Position numbers and translations under genes: made by a program. Under the pieces are notes generated by a model. It was not told the DNA's origin, did not search any database, and saw only the letters and a program-made list of their open reading frames with translations. Positions 29,459 to 40,828 of a DNA stretch of 64,000 nucleotides are shown here, one piece after another; positions within the stretch are counted from its first letter, which is position 1, and every line of letters starts with the position of its first letter. Source of the stretch: Bacillota bacterium (GTDB lineage: Bacteria > Bacillota > Limnochordia > Darwinibacteriales > Darwinibacteriaceae); contig DUPN01000100.1 in assembly GCA_012838305.1 (NCBI GenBank), positions 94,489-158,488 of the forward strand, written 5' to 3'.

Positions 29459-29697
29459 AATACGAAAAAACGATGAACGGGAGAGTACTCACTGGCTTTG
29501 GTTTCAGAGAGTCCGGTTAGGTGCAAGCGGATACCAAAAAAAGTGAAGGAAGATCACCCTGGAGTTGCTGGCTGAAAAAGAAAAGTAGGCTACGTCGGTG
29601 GTACCGTTACAACCATAGAGTGAAGACAGTCTTACTATGTCTTAACTAGGGTGGTACCGCGGTTTCCTCGTCCCTTTTTGGGGCGAGTTTTTTTGTA
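29459..29697 (+). ncRNA. T-box riboswitch leader of ileS
   Basis: Conserved T-box AGGGTGGTACCGCGG at 29648-29662; terminator CTCGTCCC-ttttt-GGGGCGAG-T7 at 29667-29694; candidate Ile specifier ATC at 29553-29555 (tentative). Confidence 0.93.
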
Positions 29698-35516: not shown

Positions 35517-35550
35517 TTAAGTCCCGCGAGACTTCAAAGGAGGAAAATTG

Positions 35551-36798
35551 ATGAACGTGAAAGTGGAAAGTGGTAGACAATTGGGTGTAGGAGAGCATGT
35601 GGCTCTTGGTTTTCAACATTTGTTCGCCATGTTTGGTGCTACTGTCTTGGTCCCTCTGTTGACAGGTCTGGACCCGGCGGTAGCCTTATTTACATCTGGT
35701 TCTGGTACACTCATTTTCCAGTTGCTGACCAAGGGCCAGGTCCCAGCTTATCTGGGATCATCCTTCGCCTTTATTGCCCCGATTATTGCTGCCGCCGGGC
35801 AATGGGGACTTCCCTATGCCCTGGGAGGAGGGGTCGCGGTTGGTTTAGTGTACGCCGCGGTGGCCTTACTCATCGCTAAAATCGGGACGAACTGGGTCGA
35901 TCGAGTCTTACCCCCTGTTGTCATCGGCTCTGTGATCATCGTTATTGGTCTGGGCTTAGCCTCCACGGCCGTTGGAATGGCGGGCTTTGTGGACGGCGGT
36001 TCCCTAGCCACCCCTGAGGTGCGGGTAGCCTTGTTTACCTTGTTGGTCACTGTCCTGGGCACCATTTTCTTCAAGGGTTTCCTCGCTGTTGTCCCCATTC
36101 TCATCGGCATTGTGGCCGGATACCTTTTCGCCCTTACCCAGGGAGTGGTAGACTTTGGGCCCGTGCGGGAGGCGGCCTGGATCGGTTTGCCTCAGTTTAT
36201 GGCCCCGAAGTTCAATGCAGCAGCCATCGCCATGATCCTTCCCGTCGCCTTGGTCTCCATCACCGAACACCTAGGGGACGTTCTGGTCATGAGCAAAATC
36301 ACGGGCAAAGACTACTACCGTAAACCTGGTTTGCACCGAACGCTCTTAGGCGATGGTCTAGCGACGTCCTGGGCCGCCCTCTGGGGTGGACCTCCTAATA
36401 CGACCTATGGTGAAAACGTGGGAGTGTTGGCCATCACAGGAGTGCACAATGTTTCCATCGTACGCACCGCAGCCATTTTAGCTGTTGCTCTGTCCTTTAT
36501 CCAGAAAATGGGCGCTCTGATTTCCACCATCCCATCGGCTGTCATGGGCGGCGTCTCCATTGTGCTCTTCGGCGTAATTGCGGCCTCGGGTCTGAGAACC
36601 TTAGTGGAGAGCGGTATTGACTACGGCGATAAGCGCAATTTGGTCATCTCTTCTGTAATTCTCGTCTTGGGCATTGGCAGCGCCGAACTGGGCCTGGGGG
36701 CACTCAAGCTCCAGGGGATGGGTCTAGCTACCGTAGTGGGCATTCTGCTCAACCTTGTTCTTCCCCAAAATGGGACCAGCAAATCCCAAGCAAGTTAA
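35551..36798 (+). CDS. uraA: Uracil permease (UraA/NCS2 family)
   Basis: ALGFQHLFAMFGATVLVPLLTGLDPAVALF, YLGSSFAFIAPI, SITEHLGDVLVMSKITGKD, NTTYGENVGVLAITGV. Confidence 0.94.
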   Translation: MNVKVESGRQLGVGEHVALGFQHLFAMFGATVLVPLLTGLDPAVALFTSGSGTLIFQLLTKGQVPAYLGSSFAFIAPIIAAAGQWGLPYALGGGVAVGLVYAAVALLIAKIGTNWVDRVLPPVVIGSVIIVIGLGLASTAVGMAGFVDGGSLATPEVRVALFTLLVTVLGTIFFKGFLAVVPILIGIVAGYLFALTQGVVDFGPVREAAWIGLPQFMAPKFNAAAIAMILPVALVSITEHLGDVLVMSKITGKDYYRKPGLHRTLLGDGLATSWAALWGGPPNTTYGENVGVLAITGVHNVSIVRTAAILAVALSFIQKMGALISTIPSAVMGGVSIVLFGVIAASGLRTLVESGIDYGDKRNLVISSVILVLGIGSAELGLGALKLQGMGLATVVGILLNLVLPQNGTSKSQAS

Positions 36799-36814: not shown

Positions 36815-36841
36815 AAAGAGGAGCGCAATGCTCCTCTTTTG
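36815..36841 (+). terminator. Intrinsic terminator after uraA
   Basis: AAAGAGGAGC-gcaat-GCTCCTCTTTT. Confidence 0.88.
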
Positions 36842-36865
36842 TCGTAAACCAGGAAAATGATGGCT

Positions 36866-37007
36866 TGGACAGATCAATCGGCGTCAAATACTGGCACATA
36901 TGGTGTTGATGTTTGGTGACCAAAAGGAAACGAAGGGCGGTCCAGCCATTCATGGGCATAACCTGATCTACGCTTGATCGCTTCCTTTTGGGTCATTGAG
37001 CTGTCCA
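36866..37007 (+). other. Structured intergenic element with nested inverted repeats (three-way-junction-like)
   Basis: P1 TGGACAGATCAAT (36866-36878)/ATTGAGCTGTCCA (36995-37007); P2 CAAATACTGGCAC/GGTGTTGATGTTTG region (36885-36915); P3 GACCAAAAGGAAACGA (36918-36933)/TCGCTTCCTTTTGGGTC (36978-36994). Confidence 0.5.
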
Positions 37008-37008
37008 T
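36874..37008 (-). CDS. Tentative small ORF, 44 aa (MDSSMTQKEAIKRRSGYAHEWLDRPSFPFGHQTSTPYVPVFDAD)
   Basis: ATG complement of 37006-37008, stop complement of 36874-36876; TATAAT on the minus strand at complement(37054-37059). Not in ORF track. Confidence 0.3.
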   Translation of the reverse strand: MDSSMTQKEAIKRRSGYAHEWLDRPSFPFGHQTSTPYVPVFDAD

Positions 37009-37112
37009 CGTTCTGACCTACCCCTACCGGTAGTATGGAAAAGGCTCCGCCAAATTATACGCAAATCAAACGAACTTGCCCGCTCCGCCCAGGATCACAA
37101 AGGCAAAGGTTC

Positions 37113-37154: not shown

Positions 37155-37229
37155 GGCGGCATAGCCAAGTGGTAAGGCAGAGCTCTGCAAAAGCTCCACT
37201 CCCCGGTTCAAATCCGGGTGCCGCCTCCA
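37155..37229 (+). tRNA. tRNA-Cys (anticodon GCA), CCA encoded
   Basis: Acceptor GGCGGCA/TGCCGCC, anticodon stem-loop GAGCT-CTGCAAA-AGCTC, T-arm CCCGGTTCAAATCCGGG, U73 then CCA. Confidence 0.95.
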
Positions 37230-37262
37230 TTGATGCAGTTTAGTGAAGGGGGGAGTCAATTC

Positions 37263-37397
37263 GTGGCTAAAGCAAAGAGAGGTAAGAACATCAAAGAGCC
37301 AGGCTGGAGAGGGACGTGCCCCTCGTGTGGAAAATCCGGGGTGAAACTGCTCTGGGAAAGAGAAAATGTGAAGGTCTGCAAAGCATGCGGAAAATAG
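37263..37397 (+). CDS. Small zinc-ribbon protein, 44 aa (MAKAKRGKNIKEPGWRGTCPSCGKSGVKLLWERENVKVCKACGK)
   Basis: GTG start with SD aagggggga; CPSC...CKAC zinc-ribbon; stop TAG 37395-37397. Missing from ORF track (too short). Confidence 0.75.
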   Translation: MAKAKRGKNIKEPGWRGTCPSCGKSGVKLLWERENVKVCKACGK

Positions 37398-38071: not shown

Positions 38072-38229
38072 GTACTTCTCTCCAATCTTAAAGTTGAATC
38101 TAATCTGTTCGTTACCAAAGCAGCCGCGCCTTGTTAAATCTACCTTCATAGGATACCACATTTTCTAGGATTTGCAAGGGTAAATTGTTCTGGGAACACC
38201 TAAACTAAGCAGAAGAGAGGGTGATCACA

Positions 38230-39030
38230 ATGAGAAGCATGTGGAATGGTTCCCTGTCCTTTGGCTTAGTGAACATTCCGGTGAAGATGTATGCAGCCAC
38301 ACAAGGTAAAGACCTTCGTTTTAACCAGCTGCACAGCGTATGCCACACCCCAATTAAGTACGAGAAGGTCTGTCCCCACTGCCAGCGTGCTGTGGTCCCA
38401 GAGGAGATTGTCCGCGGCTACAGCTACGAGCCGGGACGCTACGTGATCATTCAGGATGAGGAGTGGGAGAGTTTTGCGGCCCAGGCAACACGCACCGTGG
38501 ATATTTTGCGCTTTGTGGAGCTGCGGGAAATCGACCCCATCTATTATGAGAAAACCTACTACTTAGAACCTACGGATACCGGGGGTAAAGCCTATCGTTT
38601 GCTGCAGGAGGCTTTGCTGCAGTCGGGCAAGATCGCGGTGGCCGAAATCACAATTCGCTCCAAACCCTCTTTAGCCGTGGTCAGAGTATACCACGAAGTC
38701 TTGGCGCTGGAAACCATTTTCTACCCCGACGAAGTGCGGGATTACACCCACTTAGCCCAGGTTAGGGCTCCCGTTTCCCCGCGAGAATTGGAGGTTGCCC
38801 TGTCTTTGATCGAGACCTTGACCGAGCCCTTTAATCCTGAACACTACAGCGATGAACGCCGCTTAGGGCTGCAGGAACTGATCGAAAAGAAGATCCAGGG
38901 ACAGCAGATTGTCCAGGTCCAGCAGCCTGCGGCCGAAAAGGCCCCGGTGGATCTGTTGGCCGCTCTGCAAGCGTCCATCCAGGCGCAACAGGCTAAGGGC
39001 GCCAAAGCGCCAGGCGGGCTCCGGCATTGA
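38230..39030 (+). CDS. ku: NHEJ protein Ku
   Basis: MRSMWNGSLSFGLVNIPVKMYAAT, FNQLHSVCHTPIKYEKVCPHCQ, KTYYLEPTDTGGKAYRLL. Confidence 0.96.
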   Translation: MRSMWNGSLSFGLVNIPVKMYAATQGKDLRFNQLHSVCHTPIKYEKVCPHCQRAVVPEEIVRGYSYEPGRYVIIQDEEWESFAAQATRTVDILRFVELREIDPIYYEKTYYLEPTDTGGKAYRLLQEALLQSGKIAVAEITIRSKPSLAVVRVYHEVLALETIFYPDEVRDYTHLAQVRAPVSPRELEVALSLIETLTEPFNPEHYSDERRLGLQELIEKKIQGQQIVQVQQPAAEKAPVDLLAALQASIQAQQAKGAKAPGGLRH

Positions 39031-39938
39031 GCACCCGCTCCCTGCGCCCCATGCTGCCTCTCGATCAACCACTGCTCCCAGGGGAGACGCACTTTGTGCA
39101 CGAGGTTAAGTGGGATGGCTACCGGGCTTTGGCCCATCTGGAGAGGGGAGAGGCGGCTTTGATCAGCAGAAATGGACGCAGCCTCAACTCCCGCTTTCCC
39201 GCGCTGGTCAGGTGTCTAGAGGAAAGGAATCTCAGGGCCGTGCTCGATGGGGAAGTGGCCGCGCTCAACCGGGAAGGGCAGGTGGATTTTTCTCTGCTGC
39301 GCACCTCCCATGGGCAACTCGTCTATATTGTCTTTGATCTACTCTATCTTCAGGGTGAGAACCTATGCACCCAGCCTTGGTATAAGCGTCGAGAACGCCT
39401 GGAAGAGCTGATCACAAGCGCGGGGGCGATCCTGATTTCTCCCCTCTTAGCAGGCTCGGCCGCAGACAGCCTTGCCTTGGCCCGGGACAATCGGCTTGAG
39501 GGCATTGTCTCCAAGGATCCCAGCTCGCCCTATCTGCCGGGACAGCGCTCCCCTTTCTGGCGCAAGCAAAGGATCACCCGCAGCCTTGACCTTGTCTTGG
39601 TGGGACTGAGACTTGCTGCCAACAAAGTCCGTTCCATGGCCGTCGCCCTTTATATCGATCCTCAGCAGCTCTACTACCTAGGTAATGTGGGAAGCGGCCT
39701 GGGAGGCAGAGAACTCGATTTTCTCCAGCAGTCCATGGGTCTTTTGCGGATCGACGCTTGCCCTGTGATCAATCCTCCCCCTGCTAGCAAAGGGGATTGG
39801 GCTTGGCTGAGGCCCCATGTGGTGGTGGAAGTGGAGTACTTAGAGCTGACGGCACACAAACGCTTAAGGCATCCTGTTTTTCGGCGCTTCCGCTTTGACA
39901 AAAACCCGCAAGAGTGCATCATGAAGGAGAACACATGA
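39027..39938 (+). CDS. ATP-dependent DNA ligase (LigD ligase domain, stand-alone)
   Basis: HEVKWDGYRALAHLE (KxDG), AVLDGEVAAL, IVFDLLYL, EGIVSKDPSSPYLPGQRSPFWRKQR. Confidence 0.93.
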   Translation: MSTRSLRPMLPLDQPLLPGETHFVHEVKWDGYRALAHLERGEAALISRNGRSLNSRFPALVRCLEERNLRAVLDGEVAALNREGQVDFSLLRTSHGQLVYIVFDLLYLQGENLCTQPWYKRRERLEELITSAGAILISPLLAGSAADSLALARDNRLEGIVSKDPSSPYLPGQRSPFWRKQRITRSLDLVLVGLRLAANKVRSMAVALYIDPQQLYYLGNVGSGLGGRELDFLQQSMGLLRIDACPVINPPPASKGDWAWLRPHVVVEVEYLELTAHKRLRHPVFRRFRFDKNPQECIMKENT

Positions 39939-40828
39939 GACAGATTGTGCAAGTTGAGGGTCATTCCCTGCAAATCTCCAACCTCGATAAGATCCTCTGG
40001 CCGCAAAAGGGTCTGACCAAAGCCCATCTGCTGGATTATCATGCCAGCCTTGCGCCTATAACCATGCGCCACTGGAAAGGCCGCACCCTGACCGTGACGC
40101 GCTATCCCCATGGAGTGGAGGGTGAGTTTTTCTATCAAAAGAATGTTCCGTCTTCAGCTCCCTCTTGGGTGCAGACGTCCAGAATGGAAGCAACAAACTA
40201 TGTGCTGGCCCAAAATTTGGCGACCATAACATGGCTGGCGAATTCCGGAGCCATCGAATTTCATCCTTCAACCTTTCTAGCCTCTAGCCCCAAGGTGCCC
40301 AGCTATGCTATTATTGATCTGGACCCCACAGCTCCCCTGGGCTTTGCCGAGGCCAGGGAGGTAGCCAAGTACTGCCGCGATGTCCTCGCTACGATGGAGC
40401 TTCTTGGCTATCCCAAACTTTCCGGTGCAACGGGGATCCACATTTACATTCCCCTGGAAGGACGCTATGATTTCCAAACCAGCTCCCACTTGGTGAAAGT
40501 GATCGGACAGACCCTAAAGCAGCTCTATCCGGAAAAAGTCACCCTAGAACGCCTGATCAAAAATCGACGCGGAGTTTATGTAGATTATCTGCAGAACCAC
40601 CCGGCCAAAACCATTGTGGGGGTGTACAGCCCTAGGCCAACACCTGAGGCCACTGTGTCCACACCGGTGGAGTGGGGGGATTTGGACTATTATGAACCCA
40701 GGGACTTTACATTGCAGACGGTGCCGCGCTGGGTGCAAGGGAAGGGGGATCTCTTCCAAGACGTCTACAGAAAACCCCAATCCCTGGGGGCCCTGGAACA
40801 CGTACTTTTTTCTGGTCGGAAATCTTGA
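39935..40828 (+). CDS. LigD-type polymerase/primase domain (stand-alone)
   Basis: LQISNLDKILWPQKGLTKAHLLDYH, RYPHGVEGEFFYQKNVP, AIIDLDPTAPLGFAEA, SGATGIHIYIPLEGRY, NRRGVYVDYLQNHPAKTIVGVYSPRP. Confidence 0.94.
   Translation: MRQIVQVEGHSLQISNLDKILWPQKGLTKAHLLDYHASLAPITMRHWKGRTLTVTRYPHGVEGEFFYQKNVPSSAPSWVQTSRMEATNYVLAQNLATITWLANSGAIEFHPSTFLASSPKVPSYAIIDLDPTAPLGFAEAREVAKYCRDVLATMELLGYPKLSGATGIHIYIPLEGRYDFQTSSHLVKVIGQTLKQLYPEKVTLERLIKNRRGVYVDYLQNHPAKTIVGVYSPRPTPEATVSTPVEWGDLDYYEPRDFTLQTVPRWVQGKGDLFQDVYRKPQSLGALEHVLFSGRKS

Follow-up and report, generated by a model that had tools for sequence, protein, structure and literature searches.

The intergenic region downstream of the uraA-type permease gene probably harbors a stand-alone gene on the minus strand for a structured non-coding RNA (ncRNA) of the forespore, which would act in trans through its fold. 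The region lies in the 64,000-nt stretch of DNA that was analysed (the window; GCA_012838305.1, contig DUPN01000100.1, positions 94,489-158,488, forward strand), to which all coordinates refer; the window genome is designated G000. The original prediction had proposed a possible new structured RNA of 142 nt (36866-37007), and in its core this proposal stood, as covarying homologues exist and no Rfam match was obtained, but the strand, limits and topology had to be revised. On either strand, the folding of the 142 nt surpasses that of each of 200 dinucleotide-shuffled versions (z -3.9 for the plus and -3.3 for the minus strand). The limits given were too short, the element extending over about 36815-37024 and the promoter-like element to 37060 (Table 1). 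The 5' end of the ncRNA (~37024) was deduced from promoter spacing and the 3' end (36815) from the hairpin that follows uraA.

Table 1. Positions of the predicted ncRNA gene, its structural elements and its neighbors in the window.
Feature	Position	Strand	Remarks
uraA-type permease gene	35548..36798	+	convergent neighbor of the ncRNA; Pfam Xan_ur_permease, E 2e-100
tRNA-Cys (GCA)	37155..37229	+	divergent neighbor in the window genome; not constant among relatives
Hairpin, uraA terminator (+) and probably ncRNA 3' end (-)	36815..36839	both	
Predicted ncRNA gene, ~210 nt	36815..37024	-	conserved block downstream of uraA in 27 genomes; deduced ends
-35-like box GTATA	37056..37060	-	G-N-A-T-A invariant in alignment A1
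-10-like box CATACTA	37031..37037	-	C-A-N-N-N-T-A conserved at N17-18 spacing
H0 outer stem, 5' strand	36995..37007	-	double changes in 5 of 6 counted pairs
H0 outer stem, 3' strand	36866..36878	-	pairs with 36995..37007
H1 inner stem, 5' strand	36978..36991	-	double changes in 6 of 7 counted pairs
H1 inner stem, 3' strand	36920..36933	-	pairs with 36978..36991
pk1, 5' strand	36957..36972	-	in the former 44-nt loop; double changes in 10 of 13 counted pairs
pk1, 3' strand	36843..36857	-	just before the hairpin; pairs with 36957..36972
pk2, 5' strand	37013..37024	-	strand-neutral duplexes in 21 family members; topology search
pk2, 3' strand	36935..36945	-	in the former 44-nt loop; pairs with 37013..37024
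Possible side hairpin region (H3)	36885..36915	-	length variable; pairs as first drawn unsupported

Several other features of the neighborhood were recorded. Between tRNA-Cys and rpsD, a 47-aa zinc-ribbon-like protein without a confident family is encoded (37254-37397, plus strand). An NHEJ operon, in which Ku, an ATP-dependent DNA ligase and a LigD-type primase-polymerase are encoded by separate consecutive genes (38221-40828, plus strand), is located 1.2 kb from the ncRNA; in B. subtilis, ku-ligD is under sigma-G control. The window also contains a T-box leader at 29464-29678 on the plus strand (128.7 bits).

Relatives were sought with the DNA of the element and with the UraA protein, and the region downstream of uraA was then inspected. 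A homologue was present directly downstream of the uraA terminator in 22 of the 23 family genomes, and that of the remaining one (G021) was recovered by covariance model. The element, which had been considered an orphan, thus occurs in all 23 family genomes examined (including G021 and G015), so that this description is wrong. It is also found in five genomes from two further families within the same order (G025 of family f4; G027, G034, G035 and G036 of f3), whose members are almost wholly different in sequence from those of the Darwinibacteriaceae and have kept the position after uraA. The locus is fixed downstream of uraA in 26-27 genomes; its uraA side is constant and the opposite neighbor differs between genomes. 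The conserved block reaches from the terminator hairpin to the GTATA on the minus strand, and open reading frames conserved among the members were not found within it, two members having none at all. Among the relatives, those with names are MAGs of Bacillota from anaerobic digesters and 'Peptococcaceae bacterium 1109'. No such RNA was seen at uraA in G026 and G028 (f5), where tRNA-Cys follows uraA almost at once, nor in G024 of the same order, which yet possesses sigG, nor downstream of uraA in 18 genomes from elsewhere in the class. A covariance model (R1), made from most of the family and consisting of the nested stems only, recognised 19 family genomes, each with one strong match, but neither the g5 and g6 members nor those of the other families; the g5 and g6 members were missed in their own family because the sequence diverges so fast.

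In the relatives, both pairs of arms described originally exhibit compensatory changes, and the pairing itself was confirmed for 12 of 13 positions in the outer stem (H0) and 13 of 14 in the inner stem (H1). The 44-nt loop (36934-36977) is not free as had been assumed: parts of it pair with the regions upstream and downstream (pk2 and pk1), and these pairings are conserved in relatives. In place of a three-way junction with an open loop, the predicted fold is a double pseudoknot, and an RNA with four helices and two crossing pseudoknots is well supported by the comparison of sequences. Scored as strand-neutral pairing in each sequence, all four helices are kept through many sequence changes. 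In the window genome pk1 is formed by 36962-36972 with 36843-36853 and is longer in relatives; pk2, with 77% paired on alignment A1, is weaker than the other three helices. The third hairpin, as drawn on the plus strand (H3), did not stand out in an unsupervised scan of all A1 column pairs without any structure supplied, in which H1, H0 and both parts of pk1 ranked top; the region may contain some fold.

When the structure was counted on A1, 85.4% of the cells were paired, compared to 72.4% after shuffling and at most 48% after sliding. Double changes occurred in 23 of 30 pairs, with 107 double-change cells versus 31 in shuffled alignments, and none of 500 shuffles reached any of the five measures. 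As such shuffles leave shared ancestry in place, each of 27 sequences was also searched alone, without alignment, for four stems in the order A-B-C-D-A'-C'-B'-D' and compared to 200 shuffles of its own. All shuffles were exceeded by 22 sequences, and the remaining five were reached by 1-8 of 200. The most distant members have long helices of wholly different sequence, as illustrated by H0 of G025 (AGTTCTTTAAA/TTTAAAGAACT) and of G027 (AATACTGTAA/TTACAGTATT). RNAalifold returned weak folds on the family alignment, which we attribute to misalignment and the pseudoknots.

That the RNA is encoded on the minus strand is well supported by the sequence comparison. The original argument from G-U pairs, as read on the plus strand, did not stand: the wobble-type cells in the conserved helices correspond to G-U on the minus strand in 71 cases and on the plus strand in 23, a ratio whose binomial value is not to be taken literally as the sequences are related. 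Within the genus of the window genome, the counts were 40 versus 4. In the topology search with exact stems, the mean over all sequences was 83.1 with minus-strand and 76.7 with plus-strand wobbles; five sequences (G008, G009, G017, G019 and G022) scored higher with plus-strand wobbles, with exact stems only. The mismatch in the inner stem becomes a G-U pair when read on the minus strand. Folding energy of the homologues did not discriminate between the strands (mean z -1.9 for plus and -2.2 for minus). The orientation of promoter-like element and hairpin is consistent with the minus strand as well.

The best-conserved positions of the locus form the motif GNATA-N17/18-CANNNTA at the minus-strand 5' end. 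On A1, 7 of the 16 invariant columns fall into its two boxes, and mean conservation was 0.89 for the boxes, 0.70 for paired columns and 0.51 for the spacer; by eye, the -10 box differs in a single base in G015 and in G036. The start expected from promoter spacing, at ~37024, is where the 5' strand of pk2 begins, and the 3' strand of pk1 stops just before the hairpin, so that separately derived ends and structure coincide. The T-run after the hairpin is strong on the plus strand and short on the minus strand.

Promoters of the forespore sigma factors sigma-G and sigma-F share a two-box layout, which for sigma-G approximates GNATR-N18-CATNNTA. This pattern had a single match in the 64-kb window, at the ncRNA locus, with 0.48 expected. 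The variant GYATA-N18-CATNNTA matched nine times genome-wide versus five times for the reversed control. In G000 it occurs 19 nt before a gene that encodes an M23 protein and occupies the place of spoIIQ near mbl, and it recurs at +19 with a different spacer in G005 and G003; a further match shortly precedes a gene for a Tlp-like SASP (E 3e-5 and 8e-4, below the curated cut-offs). A sigma-G promoter consensus has been described, without the letters being printed (PMC3789822). sigG scored above the cut-off in each of the 23 family genomes, and G000 contains SASP genes. Upstream of its alpha/beta SASP genes the strict pattern is absent, and for this reason we only infer that the RNA belongs to the forespore regulon. 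The promoter is presumably used by a forespore sigma factor, most likely sigma-G and possibly sigma-F. In families f5 and f2, no sigG over cut-off was found (G026 and G028 of f5, G030, G023), and sporulation has apparently been lost there within the order.

Among the other genes behind the GYATA motif is one for a two-repeat protein of 271-279 aa in G000, G005 and G003 (L091, L153 and L136, ~1501), which we take to resemble an FMN-binding-domain protein and which is possibly a further forespore gene. The motif also precedes a gene with a good ribosome-binding site for a 68-aa protein (L084, ~1501-1760; G000 C49:68621), which lies just downstream of a YqeH-like GTPase gene; the 68-aa protein had no match in Pfam or NCBIfam.

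To our knowledge, few structured ncRNAs have been tied to endospore formation, and none of them has a settled molecular role. A search of the window and 17 homologous loci against Rfam 15 yielded no match at the gathering score and no meaningful weak match, in agreement with the earlier statement that the element fits no recognised RNA family. 6S RNA, which has the size class and the stand-alone ncRNA status in common with the new RNA, is a rod without pseudoknots; its sole match (RF00013) in the window genome is on contig C101 (86 bits) and not at the ncRNA locus. The raiA motif/ModT RNA (RF03072) comprises about 210 nt, has two pseudoknots and is linked to sporulation (PMC11706538, PMC11751092). 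The new RNA resembles it in length and number of pseudoknots and, as proposed here, in the sporulation link. However, raiA/ModT is strongly conserved in sequence, has comFC/raiA as neighbors instead of uraA and tRNA-Cys or another gene, and differs in pairing topology; the best score of its model in the genome was 18.3 bits, on another contig, with a threshold of 101.3 bits. Bvs196/S547, a Bacillus forespore sRNA of 294 nt between hinT and ecsA (PMC9147052), is likewise a stand-alone intergenic ncRNA with a sigma-F/sigma-G type promoter, a stable fold and a position conserved among relatives. Unlike the new RNA, it has stems conserved in sequence and variable loops, no pseudoknots have been described for it, and it belongs to a different lineage (PMC9147052). 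CsfG, also from Bacillus, is a forespore ncRNA under sigma-F and sigma-G for which, as cited in PMC9147052, the target is not known (Marchais et al., 2011); the likeness concerns this description. With a raiA score of 18 bits elsewhere, 6S RNA elsewhere and no match in Rfam, we regard the predicted RNA as a new family, unusual in architecture but functionally of a known kind, as judged against Rfam 15, raiA/ModT and 6S.

According to our proposal, RNA polymerase with the forespore sigma factor would start at ~37024 and stop at the hairpin common to the convergent uraA, resulting in an RNA of ~210 nt. This transcript would fold into the stem-loop H0-H1 with a side hairpin, and its apical strands would pair with the 5' end (pk2) and the 3' end (pk1), the strand order thereby tying both ends of the RNA into one compact fold. 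Most likely, the RNA would act in trans in the developing spore by its shape, as a stable, protein-bound molecule, and not via a conserved antisense seed; a role as a protein-bound scaffold or decoy instead of a base-pairing regulator is a guess. The same RNA might instead be a regulator that pairs in trans, similar to Bvs196 and other sRNAs, its short exposed stretches binding forespore mRNAs and its fold serving mainly stability. This is well conceivable, if not what we expect, as pairing with mRNAs is the presumed mode of action of most known sporulation sRNAs for which a mechanism has been proposed (PMC9147052). Conservation in the family reaches 90% or more at about a dozen unpaired positions, but they are thinly scattered and mostly adjoin helices, which argues, not conclusively, against a conserved antisense seed, and no obvious unpaired stretch is shared with the members from other families.

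Transcription of the minus-strand RNA by the housekeeping sigma factor appears improbable. GTATAWT does resemble the sigma-A -10 box (TATAAT), and GTATAAT would then be an ordinary -10 box without specificity for sporulation; but a TTGACA-like -35 box is missing at the proper distance, this reading would not account for the invariant CANNNTA located 17-18 nt downstream, and it would place the start ahead of the structured part. Moreover, in several relatives the stop codon of the neighboring gene lies immediately before GTATA, and the two-box spacing is nevertheless kept. A cis-acting element, as had also been suggested, either in the 3' UTR of uraA on the plus strand or in that of an upstream minus-strand gene, is very unlikely given the element's own promoter-like sequence, its 3' hairpin, its convergence on uraA and the variable upstream neighbor. 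The constant position directly after uraA and the somewhat better folding of the plus strand of the 142 nt would fit such an element, but the uraA terminator comes before it, the wobble bias favors the minus strand, and the window genome has no minus-strand gene immediately upstream. Despite the long inverted arms, we see practically no chance that the element is a DNA-level repeat, a MITE or a recombination element: it is single-copy in its own genome and has one strong model match per genome in the family; the locus is fixed in 26 genomes, phage and plasmid records gave no match in the DNA similarity search, and the compensatory changes and strand-biased wobble pairs argue against it as well. 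Covarying homologues, no Rfam match and a single copy together leave the idea of a structured RNA standing.

The locus also illustrates how RNA genes can escape catalogues when their sequence diverges fast, while topology, promoter and position persist. It is a tentative and rather unlikely idea that the RNA represents a new sporulation RNA class whose function resides in the three-dimensional fold with almost no fixed sequence, as the core of a spore-specific RNP or as a ribozyme, and which would be ancestral to the spore-formers of the order and lost with sporulation. The predicted RNA is compact, occurs in every family genome and has a promoter of the forespore type as well as a defined topology, which makes it a tangible object for structural and functional studies.
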